Below are positions 5,127 through 49,464 of a stretch of DNA of 64,000 bases, piece after piece. The notes under the pieces are model-generated. The model ran no database searches. It was not told where the DNA came from and saw only the letters and a list, made by a program, of their open reading frames with translations. Positions within the stretch are counted from its first letter, which is position 1. Each line of letters opens with the position of its first letter. Both the position numbers and the translations under genes were made by a program. Location: the NCBI GenBank assembly GCA_944392335.1, contig CALXWJ010000088.1, positions 1 to 64,000 of the forward strand, written 5' to 3'. Origin of the DNA: an uncultured Clostridia bacterium. Its GTDB lineage: Bacteria; Bacillota; Clostridia; UBA1381.

Positions 5127-7343
5127 TTATCTGTTCATGATCGTTTTTATTGACTGATTGCCTGTAAATTTTAAATATTTTACGTCATTTTCCGAAATTA
5201 CCGTCAAATTTCCCGCATCTTCGGAAAAAATATCAACCTCTATATTTTTTTCATTCCATATAAGCTTTTTTATTATTTTTTTATTTTTCAGCGGAATATT
5301 AAATGCTTTTCCCGAATTCAATTCTTCACTGACGCATCTTAAAAGCATTAATTTGTCTTCTTCCGTATCAACTAACATTTCATAAACAGCATTTAAATAG
5401 CCCAAATTTACATCTATCTGGAAAACCGTTGTACTGTAATTCAAACAAGCCGTTAAATTTTTATTTATGTAATGCGATAAAAGGAAATCAAGGGATCTTC
5501 TGACGCCGTCCTTGTCGCCGAGTCTTATGTATGCGTTTAGAAGCTGCATAACACTCCAGCCGCATGTACCATTATCTTCCGTAAAAAAACCATTTTCAAT
5601 TCTTTTATCAATTGCTGCCGCAATACCCCGCTTCAGCTTATTATCGTTCTTTGCTTCATTTCCATACATAATCGGATAAAGGTGGGATATATGTCTGTGC
5701 GCGTATGCTGTGCACGCATTTTCATCCGCCCACTCCTTAAGGCTTCCGTCTTCTTCATAAAAATAATCACATAAAATTATTTTATGTTTGTTTTCAACCT
5801 TTAATATCCTGCAGACCCTTTCAAGATTTTTAAACAACTCTCTTATCGATGAAATATCCATCACCGAATTTTTTCCCGCCATACAGAAAATTTTTTCATA
5901 CGGCGAATTTTCAGGTGATACCGATGGTATCACCTCCCCGTTTTTATCAACATAATCACAATAAAAATCCGCCGCTTTTTGCATAAAAGGCAGCGCTTTG
6001 GTCCTAAGGAAGTCCATGTCCTTTGTATACTGCCAATATTCATAGTAAAACAATGCGATCCATGCTGCCGCTGCGATCCAAAATTCATGTGCATAACCCG
6101 GGCCGAAATGAAAAAGCAGCCCCGAATCAGTCATTCGTGAAGTGATCACGATCCCTTTCATTCCGAAAATCTTTTTTGCATTTTCCTCAAAATCCCCCAT
6201 ATATCTTTCAATAAAATTAAAAACAGAGTTTGCTTTATCGATAAAATTCCCGCCCAACACACACCAGATCGCCATTTCAAACTCAATATTGGTAACATAA
6301 TCGCAAAACGTCCTTCCGTTCACCCTTGCGTTCCACAATCCCTGTGAGTTCGGCGGTATTTTACCGAAACTGCTTACAGCCAAGTATCTGCCCATATAAT
6401 AAAGCTTTTGCATCAGCGCTGTCTTGGAATCCGGATCATCCAGGTCTGAAAACAGGTCTTGTGTATACTCCGAATCCTTTGCACCGGAAGAAAAAATTAT
6501 CTCTGAGCTGAAAAAATCCTTATGATAAAATTTTATATTTTCATCAAACATTGCATTATAGTCCGAAAAATCAATAATTTCGGCATTTTTATCTATTCCT
6601 ATTGTTACAAACAGTTCAAGAACATCAGCGTTTGATATTTGTATTTTATTATCAGAAAAACCGACATCCCCGTCCGATCTGATCTCTATCCTTCCCTGAT
6701 ATCTTCCCTCATTCATTATAATATCATATAAGAGAACGTTATTTTCAAAGGAAATATTTTCAGAAATTATACACTTATCAAGCAGTTCCTTTTCAAAATT
6801 GTCTTGTGCCACCGGCAGCGATATGTTGATTTTATGGTTTTTCCCTCCGGTAAGGCTTATACATACCGCATTATCAACTATCGATGTAAAAACTCTCTGT
6901 ATGATCTTCTTATCATTATCACTGCATGACATAACGATTTCACCGTTATATGTATTTAAGTATCGTTCATAGTCAGAAGCTTTTGCATCATACGCAATAT
7001 TTAATTCAAACGCGGGAAAAAAGCTGTCAGGGTATAGAGTTTCGTCTTTTATGAAGGTATTGTCCATACCCCTTTCCTTTGCCTTGTTATAAAACAACTC
7101 AGCAGCTTCAGGCCCTTTATTTTCCTTAACCATTTTCCTGACCTCTTTAAACACATCGCTCATATCGGGAAAGCTTCTCAGCTTGTTTGTTCTTAAAAAC
7201 AATTCTTCGTGGTTAAATATTATTTTCTCCTCACGGAGCCTGCAAAAAACTATTGCTCCCACCGTTCCGTTTCCGGAAAAAAAACCATCCTCCCAGTTTT
7301 TTGCCGGCTTCCTGTCTTTTATGATATACCTGCCTGACTTCAT
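5127..7343 (-). CDS. GH95-like glycoside hydrolase with altered active-site motif
   Basis: The 738-residue protein is related to GH95 (alpha-L-fucosidase / alpha-L-galactosidase). The N-terminal beta domain starts with the family pattern (FFSGNGTVGAIVF near residue 21). The (alpha/alpha)6 barrel follows, with PNSQGLWN near 332, SPEN (E478, position of the general acid) and QIDVNLG (D644, position of the general base). The canonical NIN motif is NIE here (N352-I353-E354), replacing one of the asparagines that assist catalysis. There is no signal peptide, so it acts in the cytoplasm. An AAGGAGA site precedes the ATG. It is the last gene of the locus, 29 nt after a canonical GH95. It may have a shifted linkage or substrate specificity, or weak activity. 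Confidence 0.8.
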   Translation of the reverse strand: MKSGRYIIKDRKPAKNWEDGFFSGNGTVGAIVFCRLREEKIIFNHEELFLRTNKLRSFPDMSDVFKEVRKMVKENKGPEAAELFYNKAKERGMDNTFIKDETLYPDSFFPAFELNIAYDAKASDYERYLNTYNGEIVMSCSDNDKKIIQRVFTSIVDNAVCISLTGGKNHKINISLPVAQDNFEKELLDKCIISENISFENNVLLYDIIMNEGRYQGRIEIRSDGDVGFSDNKIQISNADVLELFVTIGIDKNAEIIDFSDYNAMFDENIKFYHKDFFSSEIIFSSGAKDSEYTQDLFSDLDDPDSKTALMQKLYYMGRYLAVSSFGKIPPNSQGLWNARVNGRTFCDYVTNIEFEMAIWCVLGGNFIDKANSVFNFIERYMGDFEENAKKIFGMKGIVITSRMTDSGLLFHFGPGYAHEFWIAAAAWIALFYYEYWQYTKDMDFLRTKALPFMQKAADFYCDYVDKNGEVIPSVSPENSPYEKIFCMAGKNSVMDISSIRELFKNLERVCRILKVENKHKIILCDYFYEEDGSLKEWADENACTAYAHRHISHLYPIMYGNEAKNDNKLKRGIAAAIDKRIENGFFTEDNGTCGWSVMQLLNAYIRLGDKDGVRRSLDFLLSHYINKNLTACLNYSTTVFQIDVNLGYLNAVYEMLVDTEEDKLMLLRCVSEELNSGKAFNIPLKNKKIIKKLIWNEKNIEVDIFSEDAGNLTVISENDVKYLKFTGNQSIKTIMNR

Positions 7344-7372
7344 TGTAATTTCTCCTTGTTTCGGAAAATTCT

Positions 7373-9523
7373 TTATTTGTATGCTTCTCTTTTTAATATT
7401 TGCGCCTTATTGTTTTCCCATTTAAAATCTATGATTTCGCCGGTTCTTGTCACAAAACCTCTTACCTCGCCGCTTTTCCATTCCTTTGGAATGGCGGGGA
7501 TTAATTCTACATCTCCCTTATGGCTCTGCATGAGCGCTTCACATATTGCCGCCCCTATCCCGAAATTACCGTCGATCTGAAACGGCGGATGTGCGTCGAA
7601 CATATTTGGATAAATTGATTTTTTAAACATGTTTCTTATATGCTCCATAACCTTTTCGCCCTCTTTTAATCTTGCATAAACAACACTGATCCATGCATTT
7701 GACCATCCGGTATGGCCGCCGCCGTTTTCAAGTCTTACTCTCAAAACTTCCCTTACCGCGTTGGTATATTTTTCATCTGTAAATATATCTGCCGGGTGGA
7801 ATCCATATATATGCGATATATGGCGGTGTCCGGGCTCACTTTCTTCAAACTCTTCTCCCCACTCCAAAATACGTCCGTCTTTTCCTATTTTAACAGGCGC
7901 CAGTTTTGAGATTATCTCTTTTAAATGCTTTGAATCCTCTCCGAGAATGTCTGCTGCCTTTGCCGTCTTGTCAAACAAATCATGAATGATCGACATATCC
8001 ATCGCGCTGCCCTTACATACGGCACATAATTCTCCGTCATATATAAATCTATTTTCCGGTGAAGTTGAAGGACAAGTTATAAGCTTACCGTTTTCATCCT
8101 CATACATCCAGTCCTCTAAAAATTCGGCGGCGCCGGTCATTACAGGATAATATTCTCTTAAAAACTCCTTGTCTTTTGTGTGCAGATAATGCTCCCATAT
8201 ATGTCTGACACTCCAAAAGCCTCCCATCTGCCAGAATCCCCACAAAACACCCTTGGTTGCTTCATAATTAAATCTCCAGATATCGCTGTTATGCCATGAC
8301 GACCAGCCTCTTAGCCCGAAGTTATTTCCTTTTTCACAAAATTCCTTCAGCATCTGCATAAGCGGCATATGACATTCCGATAAATTACAGGTTTCCGTCG
8401 GCCAATAATTCATTTGGGTGTTGATATTCATGGTATAATTTGAATGCCACGGCGCGATCATTTTATAATTCCATATTCCCTGCAGATTTGAGGGCTGAGT
8501 GCCCGGCATTGATGAACTGATCGTGAGATAACGTGAAAAATCAAACAATAATGTTATCAGTCCGTTGTCAACAGTTCCGTTTGCCGCATTTTTTATTCTT
8601 TCATCTGTCGGTATATTATCAAAATTTTCTCCGTCAATCCTTATCCGGGCCCTGTCAAAATATTTTTTATATTCCGCAGTGTGCCTTTTCTTTAGCTCAT
8701 CAAAAGAATATTTTGCCGCATTTTCCAAAGTATCAAGACTGGACTTTATATACTCCTTCCCTTGCGAAACAGGCATTTTATTATAACCGTTAAAGCTCGT
8801 TTTTATAGAAAAGATTATTGTAATGCCCTGTGTTTTATCAACCCAAAGCGAATTGCCGCCTCCATACTGTGTATCGTCTGTAATAATTTTTATTCTTGAA
8901 CAAAAATGAATACTTTCTTTATTTTCATCATATTCAATGGTTTGTGTGTACTGAGAAACGTCGGTAGGGCATCTTCCTTCAGACGTTACAATCCCGTTTT
9001 TACAGTATATTTTATTTTCGAGTTCAACAGCCTGATAAATGTGATAATTAAGCGGCTCGTCACTCTTAATGTTTAAAACAAGGACATCGTCGGCAAGTGA
9101 CACAAAGGCTTGTTTGCAAACCGTACTGCCGTTTAGCTTAAATTTAGTCGTGACTGTCGCGTTTTCCATATCAAGCTCGCGTCTGTAATCTGTTATATCG
9201 CTTTTATCCGTATTGATATCAACAAACAGATTTCCGTAGCTTAAATACCCTTGGGAATGAATACCAAGCATTATATCGGATGTTTCGTTTGTCGCTTGTG
9301 CATATTTCTTATCTTCTACAAGCTTTCTTATTCCGTATATTTCCCGCATACTGTGTTTTCTTGTTTCCATTCCCGGATATCCTGACCACAGCGTATCCTC
9401 ATTTATCTGGAATTTATCGGATATTGCACCCGAAAAGACCATAGCGCCGATACGTCCGTTACCTATCGGCAGCGCTTCTTCCCAAATATCAGCCTCTTTA
9501 TTATACCATAGTTTCTTATCCAT
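7373..9523 (-). CDS. GH95 alpha-L-fucosidase / alpha-L-galactosidase
   Basis: The 716-residue cytoplasmic enzyme is a canonical GH95 that removes alpha-L-fucose or alpha-L-galactose with inversion. Motifs in order: LPIGNGRIGAMVF near residue 18, NEDTLWSG near 42, PSNLQGIWN near 344, NINTQMNYW (N366, N368), SPEN (E490, acid), GHRHISHIYG near 565 and PPFQIDGNFG (D651, base). The C-terminal beta domain reaches residue 716, which is slightly short for the family. There is no signal peptide; AGGAGA lies upstream of the ATG. It sits between a large hydrolase and a divergent GH95-like paralog. It probably trims oligosaccharides imported by the ABC transporter of this locus. Confidence 0.9.
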   Translation of the reverse strand: MDKKLWYNKEADIWEEALPIGNGRIGAMVFSGAISDKFQINEDTLWSGYPGMETRKHSMREIYGIRKLVEDKKYAQATNETSDIMLGIHSQGYLSYGNLFVDINTDKSDITDYRRELDMENATVTTKFKLNGSTVCKQAFVSLADDVLVLNIKSDEPLNYHIYQAVELENKIYCKNGIVTSEGRCPTDVSQYTQTIEYDENKESIHFCSRIKIITDDTQYGGGNSLWVDKTQGITIIFSIKTSFNGYNKMPVSQGKEYIKSSLDTLENAAKYSFDELKKRHTAEYKKYFDRARIRIDGENFDNIPTDERIKNAANGTVDNGLITLLFDFSRYLTISSSMPGTQPSNLQGIWNYKMIAPWHSNYTMNINTQMNYWPTETCNLSECHMPLMQMLKEFCEKGNNFGLRGWSSWHNSDIWRFNYEATKGVLWGFWQMGGFWSVRHIWEHYLHTKDKEFLREYYPVMTGAAEFLEDWMYEDENGKLITCPSTSPENRFIYDGELCAVCKGSAMDMSIIHDLFDKTAKAADILGEDSKHLKEIISKLAPVKIGKDGRILEWGEEFEESEPGHRHISHIYGFHPADIFTDEKYTNAVREVLRVRLENGGGHTGWSNAWISVVYARLKEGEKVMEHIRNMFKKSIYPNMFDAHPPFQIDGNFGIGAAICEALMQSHKGDVELIPAIPKEWKSGEVRGFVTRTGEIIDFKWENNKAQILKREAYK

Positions 9524-9534
9524 TTTAAACTCTC

Positions 9535-12072
9535 CTATATGTATTTTTTTATCTTGACCGGTCCTAAAAGTCCCGAGGGCTCGAAAAGGAGATACTTTGA
9601 ATATGTGTCCCTTTCCTCGAAGCCCTTATGATTCGTTACAATAAGCTCTATCTTGTTTTCACCGATTTTAACCGCATCCGTTATGTCAAAAGAATAGTCT
9701 GGAACAACCCTTGCTCCTATGTATTTTCCGTTTACAGACAGCTGTGCTATCTCTCCGACATAGCCCAGATCAAGAATATAATTCCCTTCACTTTTTAAAT
9801 CAAATAAACATTCATATTTTATAGATCCCGAAAAATGTACAAGCCCTTCTCTTCCTGTTATATTGAAAAGCTCCTGTGTTGTTTTAAAATATGAATACTC
9901 ATCTTCTGTCTCTCTCTTCAGGCTTATATCAAAAACAGGCGTTAATACTTTTTCTTCCGTTATTTTGGTATCCTTGAATTTTTCAATATTATCAAAAGCT
10001 GTATCCGCGCATATGAGCACCGTTGCATTATACGGCGCAAGCTCAATTGAGACCGTTGGCAAGCTGCTTTCTTTTACAACACACTTATTTTCAAGAGCAT
10101 CATACTCCGCGTATTTCCCTCCTCCAAAGGCTGAGAGTGTAACGTTTGCTTTAATTGTATTATGAGCATCCTCATTATTGAACATATAAAAATGTGTATT
10201 ATCCCTGACGTAATGATAATAACGAAGATAAATGCCTTCATAATCCGATGTTACATCTTCATATTTACTGTCCCTCATATACTTTATCAAATCGGGAAGC
10301 TTAACATTTTCAAATCCTGTCTCCACATCGTTTTCCGATAGCATTATTACTCTTACGCCGGTATTTTTCAGTTTTTTTACAGTCTCCTCCGTTATCGTAT
10401 CATAATATGGGACAAGCAGACAGTTATATTTTTCTCCGTTTATACATCCGTCAGCATCAAACTTATCGAGATAATCAATTGGAATAATATCATAATCAAA
10501 CAGGTTGTCATACAAAACCTTTGCGCATTTTTCAAGAGGCAGAAAGTTTTGCGTTGTCCAGCGTGCCTCCGCGTCGTACAGCAACGCACAGGTGGAAATA
10601 TGCTTCCCGCCGTTTAAGAGATGACACATTCTGTTCATATAATCCATCAGAATTTTAAAATACTTATACTGCGGATTTTTTCCCCAAGCGTAAAAATTCG
10701 GCGGGCAATCAGGATCATTGGGCTTGTCAGAAAAACCGTGCGGTACATAATAATTTATACCTCTTACAAGCATGTGATCAATAAGATATTTCATTATCCT
10801 GCTGCCCTCCGCCCAGCCGTACGCGCCAAATATTTCACACATCGCCCGTCCTTTTTTCAATGGATCAATATGTGCAAATGAAGACCCGAGTTTTGCAAGA
10901 TAATATTGAAAAAAATCATTGTCCATACTTTTATAGCATACCTGACCTGCATTTGATGTTTCGGTCAGCCCCGGCACTATCTGGTGCAAAACAACATCCA
11001 CACCTGACATATCCTGTCTGTCCATTGCCCGGAAAAAATGACCTGCAGAGCCTTCGGTGCAGGCATGCGCGTTATTGTCCTCCACAATATGTCCTATATA
11101 CATCACACCGTGTTCATGACACCAATCCGCCAATTGGTCACAGTAATTTTTTTTGTATTCATCGGTTATGATATTCATATATTCCAGTCTTATTTTGTCT
11201 GTTACCCCATCTATATCAAACCATAACCCCGGCAAAAATTTTATCGCGTCCTCTTTGAATTTCATCTTCAGTCTGTCCAATACATTTTCTCTCCAAGGAT
11301 AATGAACAAGCTCTTCCCCTAATTTTGTTATAAGCGACCAACGTTGGGTATTATTTGCAAAAGCAGGCTCATCGGAAAAAAATCCCATAAATGTATTGCC
11401 GAAATATTCTTTAAAATGATCATACTGGGCTTGATATACCTCCTCTATATACAGCTTGGTCGTCATAGGATTCAATTTGTCACAATGAGCTAAATGATGA
11501 TCTGATATCCCGCTCCTGGTTTTTATTAAAAATACAATTCTCCAGCTTCCCTCGGGAAGATCAAAAAATACCATATCTTCATATAATCCATCAGTAATGT
11601 CAATAATTTCTGAGGTATATCCGCTGCTGTTTGGGATATGCTTACAAGCAATAACAGCAACGATTTCATCCTCCTCTTTCTTTTTCCAGCAATCCGCCAT
11701 TGCGCAGCCATCCTCAATAGGCCCGGATACATCAATATGATTCTCACAAATGCCCCATGCCTGCATATCCTTATATTTTTCGCGAAAAATATCATTCGCG
11801 GAGCCCGACGGATAATGCTTATCATCAAGCATCCATACTTTCATGTCCCTTTTTTTACATTCTTCCAGTATTATTCCGACGTCGCGCCACCAGCCGTCAC
11901 GGCAAAATTCCTTATGAGGTCTTGATTCCAGGCATACCGATCTTATTCCCGAATCATAAATCTTGTCAATTACGTTAATAACCTTCCCGACGTCAACGCC
12001 ATGCAGCCATAAAAAAGGTATAATATAATTTTGCTGAACGTTTTTCAAATTCTCCGATAGTCTGTTATCCAT
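9535..12072 (-). CDS. Large glycoside hydrolase, GH106-like (alpha-L-rhamnosidase-like)
   Basis: This is an 845-residue protein without a signal peptide. The first ~450 residues resemble a TIM-barrel hydrolase (PFLWLHGVDVGKVINVIDKI, SRPHKEFCRDGWWRD, MLDDKHYPSG, GFFSDEPAF, MCEIFGAYGWAEG). A glutamine-amidotransferase-like subdomain follows (about 500-620), and the C-terminus is a GH2-type galactose-binding jelly roll (VGEIAQLSVNGKYIG, NKIELIVTN). I recognise the protein type as close to GH106 and related unclassified hydrolases; the exact family is uncertain. The start at 12072 has GGGAGA upstream and leaves 17 nt after the GH2 stop. Candidate acids include the E of SDEPAF. Rhamnose release is an inference. 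Confidence 0.65.
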   Translation of the reverse strand: MDNRLSENLKNVQQNYIIPFLWLHGVDVGKVINVIDKIYDSGIRSVCLESRPHKEFCRDGWWRDVGIILEECKKRDMKVWMLDDKHYPSGSANDIFREKYKDMQAWGICENHIDVSGPIEDGCAMADCWKKKEEDEIVAVIACKHIPNSSGYTSEIIDITDGLYEDMVFFDLPEGSWRIVFLIKTRSGISDHHLAHCDKLNPMTTKLYIEEVYQAQYDHFKEYFGNTFMGFFSDEPAFANNTQRWSLITKLGEELVHYPWRENVLDRLKMKFKEDAIKFLPGLWFDIDGVTDKIRLEYMNIITDEYKKNYCDQLADWCHEHGVMYIGHIVEDNNAHACTEGSAGHFFRAMDRQDMSGVDVVLHQIVPGLTETSNAGQVCYKSMDNDFFQYYLAKLGSSFAHIDPLKKGRAMCEIFGAYGWAEGSRIMKYLIDHMLVRGINYYVPHGFSDKPNDPDCPPNFYAWGKNPQYKYFKILMDYMNRMCHLLNGGKHISTCALLYDAEARWTTQNFLPLEKCAKVLYDNLFDYDIIPIDYLDKFDADGCINGEKYNCLLVPYYDTITEETVKKLKNTGVRVIMLSENDVETGFENVKLPDLIKYMRDSKYEDVTSDYEGIYLRYYHYVRDNTHFYMFNNEDAHNTIKANVTLSAFGGGKYAEYDALENKCVVKESSLPTVSIELAPYNATVLICADTAFDNIEKFKDTKITEEKVLTPVFDISLKRETEDEYSYFKTTQELFNITGREGLVHFSGSIKYECLFDLKSEGNYILDLGYVGEIAQLSVNGKYIGARVVPDYSFDITDAVKIGENKIELIVTNHKGFEERDTYSKYLLFEPSGLLGPVKIKKYI

Positions 12073-12089
12073 GACTTTCTCCCTTTCTG

Positions 12090-14945: not shown

Positions 14946-14978
14946 ATTTCTCACCACATTCATTATATTTTACTGTTA

Positions 14979-14999
14979 CAGCCGCCGAAACGGCGGCTG
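14979..14999. other. Perfect hairpin between esterase and GH2 genes
   Basis: CAGCCGCCG and CGGCGGCTG pair over a 3-nt loop in the short gap between the secreted esterase and the GH2 gene. On the minus strand no T-run follows. It may be a processing or stabilising element that sets different mRNA levels for extracellular and intracellular genes, or a weak terminator. Confidence 0.6.
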
Positions 15000-15005
15000 C
15001 AAATT

Positions 15006-17462: not shown

Positions 17463-17485
17463 TTTAAACCTCCAATCGGGCATAT

Positions 17486-20400: not shown

Positions 20401-20554
20401 TAAAACCATTCATAAATGATTTATAATCGTTGTATTGTGTCTGATAAATTTTAGCTTTCTGTTCCAACATATTAGCTTCCGCCTTATATGGAACTGCCGC
20501 CGTTAACATGGAAAAGCATAGAATTTTTGACACTGTTTTAGTGAATTTATTCAT
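17486..20554 (-). CDS. Large secreted protein with two repeat modules and a lectin-like domain
   Basis: The 1022-residue protein has a signal peptide (cleavage near AEA-N, residue 27). Residues ~45-275 and ~280-495 are two copies of a module: a beta-sandwich opening QKIKFDLSG / QKIRFDLAS, a FDITDSVKENL-like strand-helix, then an alpha-helical linker. The beta part resembles DNRLRE/CBM96 domains (inference). A small Ig-like domain follows near 500-590, then a ~260-residue beta-rich domain (about 600-865) resembling concanavalin-type lectin or lyase folds, and a C-terminal module (about 930-1020) shared with neighbours. AGGAGA precedes the ATG. It probably binds the glycan at the surface; a hidden lyase activity in the 600-865 domain is possible. 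Confidence 0.65.
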   Translation of the reverse strand: MNKFTKTVSKILCFSMLTAAVPYKAEANMLEQKAKIYQTQYNDYKSFMNGFTDPTGFLESNQSYVSNNTFSQKIKFDLSGEEYKEFITASYAYITEQADSDLEPELYLMPEHLQDDSITPFNIEISIPGQRIDTNQYKKGSYYRYVFDITDSVKENLYNGQFVFAYNLFNNSPNGMRITANQSDGFIIENIYMTGSELLDAMKKDNSSEFILKCIGFALGEKVIAAYNTANDAGKQKILNAAKAEYNSIDEWKNSVINASSITEKEGVSIEATDIAQLETQNGVIKRYNAEDTWVGAVASQKIRFDLASVSDKKFIKRAYIDFKANADSAGEPDLYFVTTVYDNIIEEEEVLNYNIASRGMRTDDLDYIVMREYGFSSDISRFVDYIIENDGAAFILYNPLNSGIRIKRGSFIMRIEYATYEEALQMYYNGGIDLGECISYILGADSGVYYNNMTDNEKEEIKQSADILYETNALWRETIKNKINEINGSADASMSTALTNTNQDIIFTGVEGRSLSKVAVNQEEISSENYSYDENNYRLTIDKSIFATSGIYDISVEFTGSENKIYTLLTSIDVKEQYIYKNNFDEYTNEELAGDPIGQELGSSIVGLSEIAPEWSLSPYTARYNGDEFRNWAHADAGKLQNRIVEYSINGVTTKGLTLDMLDETLRRPASVLDLDRVYKSPVNKTTIGSDKVNLSYKIVFGNYENNQKPVSIAIDNCIDYGSWNTSVMNIDPVWGLTFFVNSKNGVNYSNINGYYAYSDKNVNDGTGRNNNGIDWAIVNNYTAKVDMTIDFADPDDVKLYVKIQDKDVYFEMNYGDEALRLDYLPLNPAANMQNYYDIIEPAWMSSFFPYGYDGMTMVKFIKPDAAMQVYIDDVTVQSDVNRVKTIISEVSSYPQNERKTEAKKAYRQYMSLSEEDRANVNNIGLLEMYDLFSIESAEKTGNAVYAKLNVISEKSYKAVCMIYSLNDDYVMLKDKSIIESKDIEGDTAVFTFDKIDENDIVKVMLWEENMEYPLCDYAAG

Positions 20555-20673
20555 TTTTTATTCCTTTCTCCTATTTTGAGCATAAAAAAAATAAGATCAT
20601 ACTATGGGCTTATCCTCTATTCCATACATCAAGGTAACATATTATTTTAAGAATAATAGATATTGTCCGTCCG

Positions 20674-20700: not shown

Positions 20701-20726
20701 GGCGGATATGCTCCAAATCCTTTATA

Positions 20727-26785: not shown

Positions 26786-26813
26786 ATGTAACCTCGCTTA
26801 AATATTTAACAAT

Positions 26814-31067: not shown

Positions 31068-31110
31068 AAAAACCTCCCTTTCTCCGCATATACACGGCAT
31101 AAATTACATA

Positions 31111-34002: not shown

Positions 34003-34095
34003 ATTCTTCTCCATTTCCTGCTGTTTTATAAATGACAACATGCAATCATAGATCATTGTTCTTTTTTATTTTAAAGCTACATGCTATTACCGTAT
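34003..34095. other. Gap before the structured element
   Basis: AT-rich leader of the SLH-anchored protein gene (minus strand). Apart from its ribosome binding site I see no promoter of good quality and no gene. Confidence 0.3.
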
Positions 34096-34250: not shown

Positions 34251-34282
34251 ATTAATATTTTCCTACGGCATTGTTTTATAAA

Positions 34283-37200
34283 TTACTCTGCAATATATAA
34301 TTTATTCGGACAATATGGTTTGATTATCGAGCTGTCGCTCCAGCAAAATACTTTGACTTGCTTAATATCCAAAACCCCTTCAAAATCAAAGCTGAAGCTA
34401 TCGCTGCCTTCTATCTGCGATTTTTCAAAAACTTTTGATGACAGCATTTTATTGTTTTCACCAAACGCGCATGCTGCTACAAATATCGGCAGTGCATTAT
34501 CGGTATTGTTGGTTATGTCAACCGAATATCCGGTTTCGGTCACTGTGATTTCGGACATCGTAACCTCTAATAATTTATAGTTTCTGATTTTTGATTCAAA
34601 CAATCCCAAGTTTTCCGGGACGCCTATTGTATTTGCTATTGTTTGTGAATCCTGCGTTAATGTTATGTCATTTATGAATGCAAAAGCATCAATAATATTG
34701 CTTCTTTCCGCCTCATTTGTTTTATACATCTCATACAGATCATAATTATTCATATACTCTGCAGTGATAGTTGGCGTATTTCTGAAACGGAATGCTACAT
34801 CCTTGTCGTCAGAGATAATTTCCGGATAAAGCATATAATATAATGAACCGCTTCCGTTTAACTCCAGAATATCCTCCGTAATATCAAAATCGATTATATA
34901 GTCTCCCTGCTCACCGCTGTCGTTCCATGTTATATTGCTTTCAGATCTTCTGTGCTTTTCCATTGCCTTTAAGCTGAAGGGTACCTGTGTATCCTCTGCC
35001 GTGGTTTTTGTAATAAAAGTATATGCGGTTTTGGTATCTGCACCCTTTGCTGCATCTCCCGTTCCGGTCCAGACAGTCATTTTCAATGACGCCGATTTAA
35101 CATAATCACTCATGGGTATCTCAAGATCTTCAAATAACAATTTCATTGATGAGTTTGTTTCCATATCCGCGTTCACATTAAATTGACCATTTGTTTTTTC
35201 TCCATCCGAATTTATATATACATTTCCGTCTTGATACAAATACATAAAGGAGGTGTCGTTTGCGTCTTTTTTGAATACATCCAAGCTCTTTATGAGCTTA
35301 TCTTCATCGGCCGGCGCTTGCTTATATTCATTTATAGCGGTTATTGCCGCATTTTTAAAGCTGTCGGTCGAATCATAATCTGCCGCTGTCAAAGACTCTG
35401 TTATCTGATCCTTATTTTTAAATTTTGTAAACATTTTATATTCATCGCTGTTTTTGTCAAGCAAAGTTAAAACAGCGTCCGAAATCTCCTGTTTATCAGA
35501 TGTTACATTAATCGACTGCAGATAGGCGCTGTCGATCAAAGCAGTGAGGGTGTTACCAAATTCACTTATTGTCTCATAACCGCGGAGCGCTTCTTCATTG
35601 ATCGCGGCTTTATCATCCAATGCCTCATACATATTGTATATTATGTCACCGCAGGCAAACTTGATTGACCGCCCTATTGTTGATTGTTCGATTTCATTGT
35701 TGAAGTCATAATCATTTTTATATGTTACGGTAATTACAAATGTACCTTTTTTGCTAAACTGATAAACGGCTTTCCAGTCTTCTGTTGTTCCGTTCATAAG
35801 ATTATACGCAACATATTCCTCACCCTTTTGCATCCTTTCCAGAACGTCATCTGTTATATCCATATTCTCTATAGTAAAAGGGCTTTGGTTGCTTGGATTA
35901 ATATTATACGGATCGGAATAATATTTCTTATCACCCTCCATATTTTCCAAAGACGCGTCTGTGGAATCAGCTACGGTGGGAACAAGATATGATAAACGTC
36001 CCTCCGTGTATCCTGCCTGCGGGTCTCTTGACTCAACATTAGCAGTTACTTTTACCGATTTAACCATTTCGGGATTTTTTATAAATTCTGTAGAAAATAC
36101 CAGCTTTGCGGCGATCGTATGGCCATAATTCGTTGTAACGGTATTATCTGTCGTATACTGCTTTGACAAATTACTGTTATTTCTGTCCACAGAAGTATAT
36201 TTGGGTACCGTAAGGGTCACAGTATTATCATAAATATCCTCCGGGCTAAGGTTGTCGCCTGTATACGCGTCGATCGCCGCCTTTGCCGCGGCGGCAAATT
36301 CACCGTAATTCTGTACATTTGCTTCTTTTATATAATTGTATATAAAACTTTTATTATTGAAATTTTCAAATTTTATATATCTGCCGTCATTATTTCCACA
36401 AGCAACAAGTATATATTCATTCAACGCTTCATGATCGTCAGTCTCTATTGCTTCCTTTATTAAAACAAAATATTCATTTTCAATAGCCTCATCGATCTTT
36501 GTCAGCACATCATCGGCAAAGGCCTGCATGTCGGCATATGTACCTGCTTTAACATCAGCTATTATGCTGTTTTGCGCTTCTTTTGAAATTGAGTTGAATC
36601 TCAGCATTTCGTCATCACTGAGCACAAAATCGATATACGAAGCAGTATTATCGGATATTTTTAAATTTTCAAGAAATTCAGACGGTGTATAGTATTCAAC
36701 AATATAATCAACAGAACGAAGCTCTGTAGAATAATAATTTGTATCCTCTGCATCGGGCCAAACATTATATGCAGCCATTGTTCCGCCGGACAATAATATG
36801 TTTTTGATATTGTCTGTAATATCTATTTCAGCATCGGAAAAGCTATATGTGTTGTTTTTGGTATATTCGCCCTTCATATACGCGATTTCATTTTCTGTGT
36901 ATGTATGGACCATATGGACCGCGTTTTCATAATCATTGCCGTTTTCATTCTCCAAAACGGCGGTATTTGATAAAATCGAATTTCCGTCATAAATAACGGT
37001 CATATCATCAAAGGCTGTATCGGGATACAGCTCCGCGCTCACAAGCACTCTTTTCAGCTGTGTATCATAAGCGTAATAGTTATTGTCCGATTTCCTCAAA
37101 AAATAGTTGGGATAAAGCCCGGTATCTATCGCGCTCTCATCCGGCCCAAGGTTCTTCATCGGATCCCTGAAATATCCCGACGGTACCATTATGAAAGATT

Positions 37201-37501
37201 TTATAAATTCCGCGTTATTTTTCAGATCCGCTAAATTAAATATGACCTTTGCGCCGTACCAATTCCCGTATTCAAAACGCATTGATGAATTTGAAGGGGA
37301 CGTTACCTTGGTATTATTAACCTGCTGTATCGGAATAATCCTTCCGGTTTGTATTACACCTTCATTTTCAACACAACTAAACGTTCCTTCTACCGTATTT
37401 ATAATGGAAGTTTCTTCCGCATGAGCATATACCGGAATAATTGGGATTAATCCCATAACAGCTATTGCCGCTGTCAAAAGTTTATTTATTTTTCTCATCA
37501 T
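34283..37501 (-). CDS. Giant secreted protein with three repeat modules
   Basis: The protein has 1072 residues from the ATG at 37501; the GTG at 37516 overlaps the GAGGG ribosome binding site and is rejected. The signal peptide is cleaved near AHA-EE (about residue 29). Three copies of the locus module follow: about 45-360, 415-680 (LVPTVADSTDASLENMEGD and NMDITDDVLERMQ, close to the module of the SLH-anchored neighbour) and 740-985 (SESNITWNDSGEQGDY, FDITEDILEL). Each beta-sandwich is followed by a helical segment. The last ~75 residues are the shared C-terminal module (FGENNKMLSSKVFEK... VKVFCWSDSSIIKPYCP). No anchor is seen. It sits directly after the ABC solute-binding gene, so a glycan-binding role is likely. 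Confidence 0.7.
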   Translation of the reverse strand: MMRKINKLLTAAIAVMGLIPIIPVYAHAEETSIINTVEGTFSCVENEGVIQTGRIIPIQQVNNTKVTSPSNSSMRFEYGNWYGAKVIFNLADLKNNAEFIKSFIMVPSGYFRDPMKNLGPDESAIDTGLYPNYFLRKSDNNYYAYDTQLKRVLVSAELYPDTAFDDMTVIYDGNSILSNTAVLENENGNDYENAVHMVHTYTENEIAYMKGEYTKNNTYSFSDAEIDITDNIKNILLSGGTMAAYNVWPDAEDTNYYSTELRSVDYIVEYYTPSEFLENLKISDNTASYIDFVLSDDEMLRFNSISKEAQNSIIADVKAGTYADMQAFADDVLTKIDEAIENEYFVLIKEAIETDDHEALNEYILVACGNNDGRYIKFENFNNKSFIYNYIKEANVQNYGEFAAAAKAAIDAYTGDNLSPEDIYDNTVTLTVPKYTSVDRNNSNLSKQYTTDNTVTTNYGHTIAAKLVFSTEFIKNPEMVKSVKVTANVESRDPQAGYTEGRLSYLVPTVADSTDASLENMEGDKKYYSDPYNINPSNQSPFTIENMDITDDVLERMQKGEEYVAYNLMNGTTEDWKAVYQFSKKGTFVITVTYKNDYDFNNEIEQSTIGRSIKFACGDIIYNMYEALDDKAAINEEALRGYETISEFGNTLTALIDSAYLQSINVTSDKQEISDAVLTLLDKNSDEYKMFTKFKNKDQITESLTAADYDSTDSFKNAAITAINEYKQAPADEDKLIKSLDVFKKDANDTSFMYLYQDGNVYINSDGEKTNGQFNVNADMETNSSMKLLFEDLEIPMSDYVKSASLKMTVWTGTGDAAKGADTKTAYTFITKTTAEDTQVPFSLKAMEKHRRSESNITWNDSGEQGDYIIDFDITEDILELNGSGSLYYMLYPEIISDDKDVAFRFRNTPTITAEYMNNYDLYEMYKTNEAERSNIIDAFAFINDITLTQDSQTIANTIGVPENLGLFESKIRNYKLLEVTMSEITVTETGYSVDITNNTDNALPIFVAACAFGENNKMLSSKVFEKSQIEGSDSFSFDFEGVLDIKQVKVFCWSDSSIIKPYCPNKLYIAE

Positions 37502-37527
37502 TTTAAAATCCCTCACTTTCCAAAACT

Positions 37528-39012
37528 TTATTTATTATTTTCCAAAAATTCGTTTATCTGTTTTTGTAATTCCTCTATTATCTGTTCTTCACCGGCTATT
37601 CTCAATTTTTCCTTAAACTCATTATAATTCCCTTCCCAATCATCAACACTTCCGACATTTAACGGCTGCAGATATTGAGTAACAATGGATGATACCTGTG
37701 AAAGCATATCGGTGATCTGTGTTGTATCTGCCTGGAATCCCATCAGATATGAACGGTTTGGTGAATTATTAACTTCCTCAAAAGCCCACGTGTTATAACT
37801 GTCCGGTTCGCTCTGGATATTATATGCAAGCGATGAATTTCCAACGATCCATTTATACAGACCATAGCTGTCATTTGCAGTAGGCGAGCTGTCATATGAG
37901 GTTCTTATTCTGCCCTCCGATTCAACGGTATAATCCTCTCCTTCAATACCGAATACCAATAAATTATATAATTCTTTATCTGTCTGCAAAAGGTTCAGCA
38001 CCTGCATAGCTTCTTTTTTATATGCACTTGATTCGGTAATTGACGTTCCGCCGGCAAGAGCCTTCATTCCTATATACGGTTCAACATCATACGGTACGGT
38101 TATAATTTCCACTCCGTATTGTTCTGTTAAAATATCTGCCTGATACGGAGAATAGACCTCATCCCAGAACAGATTACCGTCGATTTTTCCGTTATAATCC
38201 GCCTCGTCCGTACATGAGAGGGCGTCCTGTCTGATATACCCCTTTTCCATCCATTCTCTTGCGGTTTTATATCGCACATCGGAGTTTTCATTTGCATAAA
38301 CATTTACGACCTCGCATCCTTCATCACCGTATCTTACACCATACGGCCCTGTTATGGTATCCAATCCTTTAAGGTTTAATATCGATGTAGATTTAAAGTT
38401 GATACCCGAAGCCTTTACGTCTTCACAGTATTTTGTAAGAATATCATATACCTCCTGCGACCATTGAGGCGACGAATCAATTGCTTTTCTCAATGCTTCG
38501 AGATCAAGATATTGATCCGCCAGTTCTTTAACAAAACAAATGCATCTTGTTTGCCCCATCATCTGATATGTAGGTATACCGTAAATATTTCCGTCGATGG
38601 TTTCATAATCCCATATCCATTCCGGCAGGGCTTTTGAAATATCCTTTCCGTACTCATCAAGCAGATCATTCATAACGGTAAATGTCCCGTTTCCCACCTC
38701 CGTTGCAAAGTCAAGACCGTAATTATTTAAAATATCTATCTGTTCTCTTGCCGACATCATAAGCATTACCTTTTGCTTATACTCTGCCAGCGGAATTATT
38801 TCAAAATCCACAGTAATACCAGGAAGTTTTTCCCCAAGCTTTTTATTGAATTCCTCCCAGACCGCCTTTGAATTTTCCTGTATTCCCGGTCCGGGCATAA
38901 TATACTTCAATTTTACATTTCCTTGTTGTTCATCACCTCCCGTACATCCGCTGATTAATATACCTGCCGTACTCATTGCAAGTATTGCTGCAATAATTTT
39001 TTTGGTTTTCAT
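37528..39012 (-). CDS. Sugar ABC transporter, solute-binding lipoprotein
   Basis: The 494-residue protein has a lipoprotein signal with lipobox LISGC (C23). It matches LplA-type extracellular binding proteins (family 1) with a long C-terminal DUF3502-like part (NVGSVDDWEGNYNEFKEKLR). Typical features include LAEYKQKVMLMMSAREQIDI and NIYGIPTYQMMG. AAGGGAG precedes the ATG. It delivers oligosaccharides to the two permeases encoded just upstream. No ATPase gene is in the locus; this transporter class normally uses a shared MsmX-type ATPase encoded elsewhere. Confidence 0.9.
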   Translation of the reverse strand: MKTKKIIAAILAMSTAGILISGCTGGDEQQGNVKLKYIMPGPGIQENSKAVWEEFNKKLGEKLPGITVDFEIIPLAEYKQKVMLMMSAREQIDILNNYGLDFATEVGNGTFTVMNDLLDEYGKDISKALPEWIWDYETIDGNIYGIPTYQMMGQTRCICFVKELADQYLDLEALRKAIDSSPQWSQEVYDILTKYCEDVKASGINFKSTSILNLKGLDTITGPYGVRYGDEGCEVVNVYANENSDVRYKTAREWMEKGYIRQDALSCTDEADYNGKIDGNLFWDEVYSPYQADILTEQYGVEIITVPYDVEPYIGMKALAGGTSITESSAYKKEAMQVLNLLQTDKELYNLLVFGIEGEDYTVESEGRIRTSYDSSPTANDSYGLYKWIVGNSSLAYNIQSEPDSYNTWAFEEVNNSPNRSYLMGFQADTTQITDMLSQVSSIVTQYLQPLNVGSVDDWEGNYNEFKEKLRIAGEEQIIEELQKQINEFLENNK

Positions 39013-39076
39013 TTTTTTCTCCCTTCCGTGTATTAAAACACTGATATTATTTATACATTATGCCAAAAATCTGATT

Positions 39077-39961
39077 TTATCCTTTGACAGAGCCCACTAC
39101 AAGACCTTTGGCAAAGTATTTTTGAAAAAACGGGAAAACAACCATCATCGGTCCTGCCGCCATAATCGCAATTGCATACCGCAAAGTTTCCGACGGAAGC
39201 GTTTCACCTGTCATCGCAGCGGCAGCCGTACCCTGCATACTTTTTATATAATCCGATTCGTTTATTATCCTCTGTAATAAATATTGCAGGGAATATAAAT
39301 CGCTTTTTCGTATATAAAGCAATGATGTGTTCCAATCATTCCACTTTCCCAAAACAGTGGTAAACGCGATACACGCGATTATCGGCGTTGACAAAGGAAG
39401 TATAATCTTTCTGTATACCATAAATTCGCTCGCCCCGTCAAGCTTTGCCGCTTCCACCAAGCCGTCCGGCAGCCCTTTGAAATAAGTTTTGAACAATATC
39501 ACATTCCATGCGCTCATCAATCCCGGGAATATATAAATCCAGAAGGTATTTCCTATATGTAAGTACTGGGTATTTAAAATATAGCTCGGAACCAAGCCCC
39601 CTGAGAAAAACATTGTTATCATCAAAACAACGGTAATAAAGCCTTTCTTATTGTAATTGGATCTTGACAGCGGATATGCCATAAGCGTCTGTATTATTAT
39701 CGATAAAACGGTTCCTATGACCGTATATGCTATCGTGACCTTATATGCGCTTATCATTTGATACGGATTTTTCAATGCCTGCCTGTATGCATCCAAGCTC
39801 CACTCATTTGGGATGAGCCTATATCCGTAATCTATTACAGATTGTTCGGATGACAGCGATATTGAGATCATCAGCAGTATCGGTACAATATACGCCAAGC
39901 TCATTAAAATCATTATTATATTCAAAGCCACTCTTCCGGCTGTAATTTTTTTTCTCTTCAT
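39077..39961 (-). CDS. Sugar ABC transporter permease, YtcP type
   Basis: The 294-residue inner-membrane protein has six predicted helices, of the MalG/YtcP class. The coupling motif EAAKLDGASEFMVYRKIILP (about 190-210) contacts the ATPase. The start at 39961 follows GGAGGTAAAT; the ATG at 39973 lies on that site. It forms a heterodimer with the LplB-type permease encoded 26 nt upstream. The usual substrates of this group are complex plant oligosaccharides. Confidence 0.92.
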   Translation of the reverse strand: MKRKKITAGRVALNIIMILMSLAYIVPILLMISISLSSEQSVIDYGYRLIPNEWSLDAYRQALKNPYQMISAYKVTIAYTVIGTVLSIIIQTLMAYPLSRSNYNKKGFITVVLMITMFFSGGLVPSYILNTQYLHIGNTFWIYIFPGLMSAWNVILFKTYFKGLPDGLVEAAKLDGASEFMVYRKIILPLSTPIIACIAFTTVLGKWNDWNTSLLYIRKSDLYSLQYLLQRIINESDYIKSMQGTAAAAMTGETLPSETLRYAIAIMAAGPMMVVFPFFQKYFAKGLVVGSVKG

Positions 39962-39987
39962 ATTTACCTCCATACTGCCTTACCGGC

Positions 39988-40941
39988 TCAGAACATTGAT
40001 TTTTCCTCATCAATTTTTTTGATTATACCATTACATACAATCAAAAGTATAACTCCCGCAAGTGACTGGAACAAACCGACTGCCGTCGTTCTTCCCATAC
40101 TTGTACCTGCCTGTAATGCTCTGAATGTGTATGTATTCAATATATCTGTTGTAGGATACAAAAGCCCTATATTTCTCGGTATCTGATAAAACAGCCCGAA
40201 ATCCCCGCTCATCGCGTAACCTACTCCCATTATGATCTGCAGGCATAAAAGCCCCATTATTTCCGGTATTATAATATGTATGATCTGTTGGTATTTATTC
40301 GCGCCATCGATTTCAGCCGCCTCAAACAGTGTTTCATCTATTCCCACCATGGTGGCATAATACAAAAGGCTTCCGTATCCCACGCCGTTCCATACCTTGA
40401 CGACCGTTAAAATAAAGGGCCAGTATTTTGGATCCGAATACCAATCTATTGGTTTTCCCCCAAACATTTTTATGATACTGTTCAATACGCCCGACGTCGG
40501 CGAAAGCATCAAATATACGATATATGAAATTAATACTATTGACATAAACGTCGGCAATATGGACGTTGTCTGATAAAATTTTAACGCGGCCTTATTTCTT
40601 ATGTTATAACACATTATCGCGAATACTATATTTGTGAAATTACATATCACTATAAACCATAAAGCATATAAAACCGTATTCCTCATAAGAACAGCGAAAT
40701 CACTTGATTTGAAAAAAAACATAAAGTTGTCAAGGCCTACCCATTTACTTGCCAGTATGCCGACGTTGGGATTAAAATTTTTAAACGCAAGTATTATCCC
40801 AAACATAGGGATATAACAAAAAACAATTACCAATAACAATCCGGGCAATATCATCAGATCCATCTGTTTTATATCGCTCTTCATACTTTTTTTGTAACCG
40901 TTTTGCTTATTGCGCTTTGCTAAAGAAGTTATCAAATTCAT
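39988..40941 (-). CDS. Sugar ABC transporter permease, LplB type
   Basis: The 317-residue membrane protein of the LplB/YteP class has six predicted helices. ILPGLLLVIVFCYIPMFGII marks the first helix, and EAAEIDGANKYQQIIHIIIP (about 210-230) is the ATPase-coupling loop. AAAGGAA lies upstream of the ATG. It pairs with the YtcP-type permease; LplB/YtcP systems with YesMN regulators import rhamnogalacturonan fragments in Bacillus, which supports a pectin-side-chain substrate. Confidence 0.92.
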   Translation of the reverse strand: MNLITSLAKRNKQNGYKKSMKSDIKQMDLMILPGLLLVIVFCYIPMFGIILAFKNFNPNVGILASKWVGLDNFMFFFKSSDFAVLMRNTVLYALWFIVICNFTNIVFAIMCYNIRNKAALKFYQTTSILPTFMSIVLISYIVYLMLSPTSGVLNSIIKMFGGKPIDWYSDPKYWPFILTVVKVWNGVGYGSLLYYATMVGIDETLFEAAEIDGANKYQQIIHIIIPEIMGLLCLQIIMGVGYAMSGDFGLFYQIPRNIGLLYPTTDILNTYTFRALQAGTSMGRTTAVGLFQSLAGVILLIVCNGIIKKIDEEKSMF

Positions 40942-40972
40942 TTATTTACATTCCTTTCCGTTCCAATGCATA

Positions 40973-42742
40973 TTAATCTGACGTTTCGTCTCCGAAATTA
41001 TTTGGCATAAATAAAATATTTTCCTGCGGAATTGTTAGTATTATTGTTGTAAACAGATTTTCTTTGCTTATAATTTCAATACCCGCCCTTTGACCGAATG
41101 CCGCTTCAAGTCTTTTATATATATTTTTTATACCTATTGATACATCTGTCATATCATCATTTTTTAATGATTCGGTTATTTGATCTATTTTTGACTGTTC
41201 AATCCCCTTACCGTTATCCGTCACGGAAATTATCAAGTCATTTTCCGGCTTCTCACATTTTATCGATATTCTGCCGTTATCCTTTTTGCATCCGTGAAAA
41301 ACAGAATTTTCAATCAACGGCTGCAAACACATCCTGAGAACCATACATTCCGATAACGAGCTGTCCGCCGTTATATCAACCCTGAAATTATCATATCTTA
41401 AGCTTAAAAGATTCACATAATTTTTAATAAATAGAAGTTCTTCCCTCAAAGGCACAAAAATCTTATCGGTTACAAGAGAGTATGTTAATATTTTTGAAAG
41501 CTGTGAGATCATCTTTGAAATATTTTCACTGTTTTCGACCGTTTCGATAACCTCATAATTTATTACCGCTAAGGTGTTATTCAAAAAATGCGGCGTTATC
41601 TGTATTTGCAATGCTTTCATTTTCCACTTTTCATATTGTACATTCCGTGAATTGATCTCATTTTTCAATTTTGTATTATCATCCATCAGATATATTATCT
41701 TATTCGCGACCTCGCTTATTTCATTTTCGGTCAATTTTTTATAAGCATTTCTGTTTTCAAAAAGATCGAGTATATTTATAATCTGGGATATACTGTTCAT
41801 TGAAAGTACAACGGCCATTACAATCAAAACGATCATAATCCCCAGAAACAGAAGGATCAGCTTGACAAATAAACCGTTAACAACCGCATTGTAGTTGTTA
41901 TTTAGCATAGTCCTGATATAATACCAATTATAGTACATTGATTTTTCTACCGAAATGGACATAGCTTGTGATCCGCTTTTGTATATTTCCTCAAATTTTC
42001 CGTCATCTATCATTTTTAAAATTTGCTTTTCAACATCTTTATTCCTGTTTTTTGTTAAAAGATTTGTATACATAATATTATTCGGTTCCGCAATATAAAA
42101 TGCACTATCCTCATTAAAGTTTACCGAAATATATTTTTCCAGCCCCAGCAGATCAATATTTAATATAACGGCGCCTTTATTGTTCCTGTATTTTTTTATT
42201 AATGTAAAAACCTTATTTGCCGTATTGTCTATTTTTCTCGAGATCATCTTATAGCTGTCGCTGAATTCTTCCGTATAAGCGCTGTACCATGAAGCATCCT
42301 CAAATTCCTCCAATGCTTCACAGTCGGTATCACTGCATAAAACATCCTGTATCTCACTGTATAAATAGATAGAATGTATAAGCGTTTTCCCTGACATAAA
42401 TGTTGATATCTTTTTCATCATCTCTTCTTTTTCTTCATCGGTATACGGATTGTTTTCTCCTCTTGTCATATAATTTTCCACATCTTGATCCGCCATGATC
42501 TCGGCAGTAAGATATTCCGTATCTCTTATCAGCGCTTCAGTTGTCGCCCCTATCTTTTTTACCGTCTCATTGTTTATCTCAAGAGCCTCTTTCTTCGTGT
42601 TATTCATTGTCATAGTATATATCCCGAAGGCGGGTATTGTAAAAAAAGCCAAGAATATAACAAATAATTTTAAAGAATTTTTTACAGCAATACTTTTAAA
42701 CCTATATTTCCTCCAAAAAGAAAAATAACTATTCTTAAACAT
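40973..42742 (-). CDS. Sensor histidine kinase, YesM type
   Basis: The 589-residue protein starts at the ATG at 42742 (AAGGA upstream; the longer frame overlaps the response regulator). The first membrane helix is near 18-38 (LKLFVIFLAFFTIPAFGIY), then a ~250-residue external sensor domain and a second helix near 290-315. A short HAMP-like and coiled-coil region leads to the His_kinase domain: PHFLNNTL (H385, phospho-acceptor; Asn in place of the usual Phe after Leu), QPLIENSVFHG (N box) and VTDNGKGI (G1). It partners with the AraC-type response regulator 4 nt upstream and probably senses the glycan or a bound oligosaccharide outside the cell. Confidence 0.92.
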   Translation of the reverse strand: MFKNSYFSFWRKYRFKSIAVKNSLKLFVIFLAFFTIPAFGIYTMTMNNTKKEALEINNETVKKIGATTEALIRDTEYLTAEIMADQDVENYMTRGENNPYTDEEKEEMMKKISTFMSGKTLIHSIYLYSEIQDVLCSDTDCEALEEFEDASWYSAYTEEFSDSYKMISRKIDNTANKVFTLIKKYRNNKGAVILNIDLLGLEKYISVNFNEDSAFYIAEPNNIMYTNLLTKNRNKDVEKQILKMIDDGKFEEIYKSGSQAMSISVEKSMYYNWYYIRTMLNNNYNAVVNGLFVKLILLFLGIMIVLIVMAVVLSMNSISQIINILDLFENRNAYKKLTENEISEVANKIIYLMDDNTKLKNEINSRNVQYEKWKMKALQIQITPHFLNNTLAVINYEVIETVENSENISKMISQLSKILTYSLVTDKIFVPLREELLFIKNYVNLLSLRYDNFRVDITADSSLSECMVLRMCLQPLIENSVFHGCKKDNGRISIKCEKPENDLIISVTDNGKGIEQSKIDQITESLKNDDMTDVSIGIKNIYKRLEAAFGQRAGIEIISKENLFTTIILTIPQENILFMPNNFGDETSD

Positions 42743-42746
42743 GGTA

Positions 42747-43958
42747 TCAATCCTTATTTTCACTGTCCCTGTATTCCTGAATGGTTTTTCCCGTATATTT
42801 TCTGAACAGCCTTCTGAAGCTTCTCGTATCATTATATCCGATCATTTTACAAACCTTATCTGCGTTTATATTCTGTCCTATCAAATACACGGCTCTTTCC
42901 ATTCTCAAGTCAAACATATATTCCGATATTCCCTTGCCGGTAATCTCTTTAAATTGCCTGCCCAAATAATCCCTGTTCATATTAAAATGCTTCGCGACAT
43001 CATTTTTAAGTATCCCTGTTTCAAAATTGCGGTTTATATATTCTATAACTTCATCTATAAATTTTGATTTTTTATTCAATTTCTCATCTAATTCATGAGA
43101 ATTTATAAGTTTTACCTTCTCCTCTTCATCAACAATTGTTTTCTCATCAGGGTCACATAATTCAAAAAAAGATTTATTATAGTTTTCAATAACCTCTGTT
43201 CCGATTCCTATTGTTTCTGTTATCTTCTTTTCTATTTCCTCATCACTCAGACCGATCTGGTTTTCTTGTGAAAATAAAAGCAAATATTTGTATTCATCCT
43301 CGTCTTTTATATTCATAACAAAACATTGATTATGTATTACCTTGATGATATTTGTTATGGCATTGTTGAACATATCCGCATCATAATGCCATTTTTCTTT
43401 AAGAAATATATACAGGTCCTTAAATTTTATCGTAAGTATCTTACAGACCGCTTTCTCTGCGGGAATTGTGCAAAGCTGTGAAAATTTATCTATTATTTCC
43501 TCTCTGCTTTCAAACATATTACAAAGAACATCATAAAAAAACATTTCCAATTCGATCTGATTATTTTTATAAATATCTTTCTTTTTTAAAAGCTCATTTT
43601 TAAGCCTTTTCATCATCTCTTTGAACTCATCGGGATCTATTACCTTTAACAGATAGTAAAGCACCTTATACCTGATCGCCTCCTGCGCGTACTGAAATTC
43701 ACCGTATCCGCTTACCATGATCACTTTTATGTACGGCTTATTCTCATATATCCATTTGGCTATGTCAATACCTGTTATATCCGGCATTTTGACATCTGTA
43801 AATACCACGTCGACATCATTTTTTTCAAGGTATTTCAATGCCTCCGGGCTGTTGGAAAAGCTGCGGACAATTTCAAAATCCCCTGCATATGCCATACAAT
43901 ATTTCTTTAAGGTTTCCCTTGCTATTTTTTCATCATCAATAATAATTGCTTTAAACAT
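42747..43958 (-). CDS. Response regulator, YesN type with AraC-type output domain
   Basis: The 403-residue protein has a receiver domain at 1-120 (acid pocket D8-D9, phosphorylation site D55 in VVFTDVKMPD), a helical middle region, and an AraC-type DNA-binding domain at about 300-400 with two helix-turn-helix units (LKNDVAKHFNMNRDYLGRQF; VCKMIGYNDTRSFRRLFRKY). GAGGG precedes the ATG. It is the first gene of the minus-strand glycan locus and should activate it. Repeated sequences at 44044-44092, 86-134 bp upstream, are candidate binding sites. Confidence 0.92.
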   Translation of the reverse strand: MFKAIIIDDEKIARETLKKYCMAYAGDFEIVRSFSNSPEALKYLEKNDVDVVFTDVKMPDITGIDIAKWIYENKPYIKVIMVSGYGEFQYAQEAIRYKVLYYLLKVIDPDEFKEMMKRLKNELLKKKDIYKNNQIELEMFFYDVLCNMFESREEIIDKFSQLCTIPAEKAVCKILTIKFKDLYIFLKEKWHYDADMFNNAITNIIKVIHNQCFVMNIKDEDEYKYLLLFSQENQIGLSDEEIEKKITETIGIGTEVIENYNKSFFELCDPDEKTIVDEEEKVKLINSHELDEKLNKKSKFIDEVIEYINRNFETGILKNDVAKHFNMNRDYLGRQFKEITGKGISEYMFDLRMERAVYLIGQNINADKVCKMIGYNDTRSFRRLFRKYTGKTIQEYRDSENKD

Positions 43959-49457: not shown

Positions 49458-49464
49458 CCCTCCC

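Follow-up and report, generated by a model that had tools for sequence, protein, structure and literature searches.

In the Bacteroidetes, the SusC/SusD pair allows sugar loci to be found and counted; for the Firmicutes, we know of no comparable sugar-locus marker so far. Gram-positive polysaccharide-utilisation loci (gpPULs), as in Roseburia and Eubacterium rectale, are defined in PMC5320581 by at least one polysaccharide-degrading enzyme together with a carbohydrate transport system and a transcriptional regulator. The nearest described strategy to the one we report is that of Paenibacillus sp. JDR-2, which has 77 SLH genes, 29 of them carbohydrate-related (PMC4765114). Our subject is a 39-kb locus (5127-43958) in a stretch of 64,000 nucleotides, here called the window, from an uncultured Clostridia bacterium. 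Its 17 consecutive genes all lie on the minus strand and are numbered g1 to g17 in order of transcription, from 43958 down to 5127. What is new is a duplicated pair, g7 and g8, of SLH proteins in which no catalytic domain is recognised. We consider it probable that the locus is a gpPUL of a Monoglobus-like gut Clostridium in which g7-g8 is a duplicated, substrate-diversified device for surface capture or scaffolding.

The locus contains enzymes (GH2, GH95, GH106-like, GH141-like and SASA), transport genes (g3-g5) and a regulator (g1-g2), and is thus a gpPUL by the definition in PMC5320581. The first-pass annotation of a polysaccharide-utilisation locus with an SLH-anchored extracellular apparatus is well supported. 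No SusC/SusD family, the mark of a Bacteroidetes locus, appears among the Pfam families of any of the 17 proteins, and their Pfam matches include none of the cohesin or dockerin modules that mark a cellulosome. With the gpPULs of Roseburia and E. rectale, as far as the available text describes them, the locus has in common the clustering of enzyme, ATP-binding cassette (ABC) transporter and regulator, the lack of SusC/SusD, and several exo-enzymes without export signals; it differs in its larger size, its eight exported proteins and its repeated SLH pair, of which that part of the text makes no mention (PMC5320581). Paenibacillus sp. JDR-2 likewise processes polysaccharides at the surface, with triplicate-SLH proteins adjoining ABC transporters and regulators, but there the SLH repeats are on the multimodular hydrolases themselves, whereas here the two proteins with SLH repeats have no recognised catalytic domain and the enzymes bear other terminal modules (PMC4765114). 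Like SusC/SusD, g7-g8 is an adjacent, co-duplicated and highly diverged pair and a mark of the majority of sugar loci in its genome. Unlike SusC/SusD, to which it has no homology, it involves no outer membrane and no transporter in the pair, and its capture role is a proposal. We did not find the pair described in the open literature, where an earlier mention in the Monoglobus genome paper (PMC6776006) is possible.

The g7-g8 pair

The gene for g8 starts 10 bp after that for g7. Pfam sees one SLH repeat in g8, but in the AlphaFold2 model (mean predicted local distance difference test score, pLDDT, 67; good for residues 45 to 490) residues 45-222 span an entire trimeric SLH domain, which aligns with the SLH domain of SpaA (7sv3) at Z 16.5 and root-mean-square deviation 2.7 over 155 residues. 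The predicted SLH anchoring is therefore found in both members, complete in g8 despite the single Pfam repeat, and both are putatively wall-anchored surface proteins with three repeats each. By sequence comparison, the conserved part of g8 is the body and not the SLH domain. The body belongs to no family in Pfam or NCBIfam and has no sequence match in the PDB, which a g8 profile reaches through the SLH part only. Its model is beta-rich, with a faint likeness to small OB-like barrels; the OB-fold and cold-shock-like matches (Z 5 to 7) are too weak for naming a fold, and Foldseek matches to DDB1 are spurious (TM score 0.1 or less). Relatives of g8 occur in 110 of the 121 neighbouring genomes, at best over approximately 450-700 residues, some of the weak matches being to SLH only; the best relatives align over the full length at 21-25% identity. 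A scan of named genomes used a profile of the closer relatives, as a profile of 16 relatives was too divergent, and it returned uncultured gut Clostridia, Candidatus Ornithomonoglobus, Candidatus Aphodoplasma and uncultured Monoglobus, from which we take the host genome to be Monoglobus-like.

A search with the g8 body, SLH domain excluded, finds it in 83 of the 291 genomes sampled from the class. The source genome, searched region by region, has 39 copies, the window included. In 31 of these a gene ending in SLH lies directly upstream, and one is a natural fusion, a 1438-residue frame in which residues 378-564 are SLH repeats and residues 576-1428 the g8 body (L062:10218-14531; the contig region also holds a GH95 gene). 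In five other genomes with 20 loci, the partner is upstream in 14 and downstream in 2. Over all loci the gap between the members is below 50 bp in 55 of 58 cases (median 9 bp), with an overlap in 21. The upstream proteins have in common a glycine/serine (G/S)-rich linker and the SLH end, and their outer parts are strongly divergent. Distances between SLH ends correlate with those between g8 bodies (Mantel r 0.48, P 0.0002, 18 pairs), the pattern to be expected of two genes that duplicate together. A tree of 81 g8-type bodies groups the unpaired copies (9 changes, where shuffles give 16.3); four of these, each from a different family, make up a single clade with support 100. This clade, kept across orders, apparently represents the ancestral g8-type gene; at least two of its members (L055 and L095) stand in housekeeping surroundings.

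The pair is linked to sugar genes. The indicators were homologues of the CAZyme (carbohydrate-active enzyme) or sugar-transport genes of this window. Of the 31 other paired or fused loci in the genome, 27 have such a homologue no more than 6 kb away, and of 20 control regions 2 contain one (Fisher P 4e-8). Pfam matches in the 69 same-strand neighbours include Beta_helix (16), GH141_M (6), GDSL (4), solute-binding proteins (4), alpha-L-fucosidase (3) and GHL6 (3), none of which is among the top 25 matches listed for 126 control proteins. LplB/YtcP or YesMN-like genes also stand beside the pair at several loci of three genomes from other genera (G009, G042 and G012).

Several observations weigh against tying the pair to glycan capture. 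Seven of the 39 genomic copies lack a partner next to them. The control regions are the first stretches of contigs in one genome. The correlated divergence could come from co-duplication alone. In the relative genome G240 the pairs stand away from recognised CAZymes, and the pair is thus not strictly tied to sugar loci. Finally, the stand-alone clade beside housekeeping genes points to an older, general envelope role. Some of these points are also what would be seen if g7-g8 were a general S-layer or envelope block, copied many times for surface variation and adjoined by sugar genes only because these dominate the loci of exported proteins in this lineage; an unpaired orthologue is kept across families in housekeeping surroundings, the G240 pairs do not adjoin CAZymes, and SLH proteins are typical S-layer components. 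We think this explanation unlikely, given the excess of sugar genes over controls at the paired and fused loci, and the transport and regulator genes that accompany the pair in other genera.

Enzymes and the target glycan

Family calls on the 17 proteins were made with Pfam (Table 1). The open reading frames (298-1077 aa) are spaced from an 86-bp overlap up to 226 bp, and they may be co-expressed as an operon. Scans for promoter-like sites (75 against 58 in shuffles, and 96 against 67) and for terminators (counts near expectation) were uninformative. The one-strand, 17-gene layout, the YesMN two-component system and the LplB/YtcP importer with its lipoprotein were all annotated correctly in the first pass. 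Its six giant surface or secreted proteins become eight exported non-lipoproteins (g6-g13). Read from the translations, N-terminal hydrophobic signals are present on all eight of these and absent on g14-g17, so that the clean division between exported proteins and later signal-less enzymes holds. A perfect 9-bp G+C-rich hairpin lies at this boundary, between g13 and g14 (14979-14999), with no T run after it on the coding strand.

The two beta-helix proteins g10 and g11 are 36-37% identical. A profile of both with eight paralogues matches BT_1002, a GH141 enzyme, in several stretches along the beta-helix (E 1e-31). The essential aspartates of BT_1002 are D523 and D564 (PMC12786026), whose positions in the chain we assigned by their 41-residue spacing; the equivalents are D538/D586 in g10 and D547/D594 in g11, and both are Asp in 10 of 10 aligned sequences. 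Because both catalytic aspartates are conserved, membership of g10 and g11 in GH141, as first proposed, is well supported by the alignment. With BT_1002, Xyn141E and the Wf141 endo-fucanases (PMC12786026) they share beta-helix homology and both aspartates, but at low identity and with no GH141_M insertion detected in Pfam at E 0.01, a module that was found in six proteins of neighbour loci. Since a fucosidase, a xylanase and endo-fucanases all belong to GH141 (PMC12786026), membership does not fix the substrate.

For the other enzymes, the esterase and the GH2 are borne out by Pfam and intact motifs: g13 has both the GQSN and the His-containing block, and g14 has the TIM barrel, Bgal_small_N and both catalytic Glu motifs. 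The GH106-like assignment of g15 stands in part, the match covering profile positions 216-614 of 743. Of the two proposed GH95 enzymes, both have the Pfam domain and g16 has the complete catalytic set (N-x-N, acid Glu, base Asp), but g17 lacks the conserved active-site Asn. A relative at 24% identity, it reads N-I-E for N-I-N and has lost the HPP ahead of the base Asp; the second Asn is kept in nine of nine closer relatives fetched from other genomes. From these replacements, g17 may be inactive or of other specificity.

Several exported proteins belong to no recognised family, as expected from the first reading (g6, g12 and the g8 body). Neither g6 nor g12 has a meaningful Pfam match even at E 10. 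Residues 428-605 of g6 form a module in common with g7 (36% identity, BLAST E 4e-25). Apart from its Ig-like tail, g12 has no relative in Pfam, the PDB or the 60 neighbouring genomes searched. This 80-residue domain, covered by no Pfam model, ends g6, g10, g12 and g13; the loci examined have 50 copies, 40 of them 15 residues or less from the C-terminus, and the control regions have 4. The domain is modelled with confidence as an Ig-like sandwich (pLDDT 92.7), with Z about 10 to the Ig-like domains of GH2 enzymes, a predicted fold too common to hint at function. Some copies are internal, even within SLH proteins, and we therefore gave up the idea that the tail is strictly a C-terminal anchor. 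Every exported protein from g6 to g13 bears SLH, Cu_amine_oxidN1 or the Ig-like tail at one end.

The target could be one of several fucosylated and galactosylated glycans, such as fucosylated xyloglucan side chains, arabinogalactan, mucilage or a bacterial exopolysaccharide. We regard this as plausible, and hold it loosely: GH95, GH2 and the esterase suit several such glycans and GH141 includes a xylanase and endo-fucanases (PMC12786026), but Pfam recognises no xyloglucanase, galactanase or arabinofuranosidase in the locus, and nothing positive singles out one glycan. The genome encodes L-rhamnose and L-fucose isomerases elsewhere, which fit the use of these sugars but give no tie to the locus. 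Beyond GH141, the family set of the locus overlaps the enzymes of rhamnogalacturonan II (RG-II) breakdown. RG-II or RG-I, the target first suggested, would have L-fucose or L-galactose removed by GH141 and GH95, L-rhamnose by GH106, galactose by GH2 and acetyl by the esterase, and BT_1002 is known from RG-II breakdown (PMC12786026), the two isomerases are in the genome and a pectin specialist is among the relatives (PMC12163728); it is nonetheless the more doubtful candidate, as Pfam recognises no GH78, glucuronidase, backbone lyase or pectate/rhamnogalacturonan lyase among the 17 proteins, GH141-like genes in many other loci of this genome make that family undiagnostic, and g15 is a partial GH106.

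Table 1. Genes of the locus, by window position, and stand-alone g8-type orthologues, by position in their own regions
Feature	Positions	Strand	Basis
g1, YesN-type response regulator with AraC helix-turn-helix	42747..43958	-	Pfam Response_reg, HTH_18
g2, YesM-type sensor histidine kinase	40973..42832	-	Pfam His_kinase, HATPase_c; 86-bp overlap with g1
g3, LplB-type permease	39988..40941	-	Pfam BPD_transp_1
g4, YtcP-type permease	39077..39973	-	Pfam BPD_transp_1
g5, solute-binding lipoprotein	37528..39012	-	Pfam DUF3502, SBP_bac_1; lipobox ISGC (ISGCTGG)
g6, exported 1077-aa protein, Ig-like C-terminal tail	34283..37516	-	No Pfam family
g7, exported stalk, G/S-rich linker, three C-terminal SLH repeats; first pair member	31111..34056	-	Pfam SLH 5e-44; pair census
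g8, N-terminal three-repeat SLH domain (about 45-197), ~740-residue unnamed body; second pair member	28287..31100	-	
g9, exported 458-aa protein, C-terminal Cu_amine_oxidN1	26814..28190	-	Pfam
g10, exported GH141-like beta-helix protein	23714..26785	-	Pfam Beta_helix; D538, D586; Ig-like C-terminal tail
g11, exported GH141-like beta-helix protein	20727..23648	-	Pfam Beta_helix; D547, D594; C-terminal Cu_amine_oxidN1
g12, exported 1022-aa protein, Ig-like C-terminal tail	17486..20554	-	
g13, exported SASA-type carbohydrate esterase	15006..17483	-	Pfam SASA; GQSN, HYNQNGY motifs; Ig-like C-terminal tail
g14, cytoplasmic LacZ-type GH2	12090..14963	-	Pfam; Glu motifs WSVGNE, TEYAHAMGN
g15, cytoplasmic GH106-like protein	9535..12099	-	Pfam GH106 7e-13, partial; NCBIfam rhamnosidase jelly-roll domain
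g16, cytoplasmic GH95	7373..9523	-	Pfam 8e-149; active-site motifs intact
g17, divergent GH95 relative	5127..7343	-	Pfam domain; N-x-N second Asn replaced by Glu
Stand-alone g8-type orthologue	L055:8727-11294		
Stand-alone g8-type orthologue	L104:7479-10250		
Stand-alone g8-type orthologue	L095:8984-11887		
Stand-alone g8-type orthologue	L114:6910-9558		

Around the locus, an RsgI-like anti-sigma factor and a sigma-70 family factor are encoded downstream on the same strand (3383-4601), and the end of a group II intron (D1-D4-5) lies at the window edge (1-59, minus strand). On the other side, 3 kb hold very small reading frames only (48415-50752), with two overlapping small-protein genes, presumably DUF2442/DUF4160-like (48415-48977), and two small proteins that are alike (49875-50153 and 50534-50752). 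A purine biosynthesis cluster follows (52794-62506), with IMP dehydrogenase, PurL and PurD, and AICAR transformylase-like and IMP cyclohydrolase-like functions as separate genes.

Proposed working of the locus and its meaning

For the locus as a gpPUL with a surface device, we propose the following sequence of events. The YesMN pair would sense the glycan or its fragments and activate the operon. Exported proteins, held at the wall by SLH or bearing Cu_amine_oxidN1 or the Ig-like tail, would bind the glycan, which g13 would de-esterify and g10 and g11 would cut. The lipoprotein and the LplB/YtcP permeases would import the oligosaccharides, presumably with an ATPase encoded elsewhere, and the cytoplasmic GH2, GH106-like and GH95 enzymes would strip galactosyl, rhamnosyl, and fucosyl or L-galactosyl ends. 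In this sequence g7 would display a variable, substrate-specific stalk and g8 would be its dedicated wall-anchored physical partner; every locus would then possess a capture or scaffolding device of its own, with a genomic role like that of SusC/SusD and without transport.

A wider proposal, which we put forward tentatively, is that SLH-bearing Clostridia in general use the pair to capture glycans, and that it has in Gram-positives a marker role like that of SusC/SusD. There would then be one co-inherited pair per sugar locus, the g8 body would define a new family for carbohydrate binding or scaffolding, and sugar loci could be predicted from the pair in genomes with unrecognised enzymes. If the pair is indeed tied to glycan use, it would provide a sugar-locus marker for Monoglobus-like gut fibre degraders, put a name to a family of proteins present 39 times in a single genome, and expose enzyme families hidden among unrecognised neighbours, such as g6, g9 and g12.

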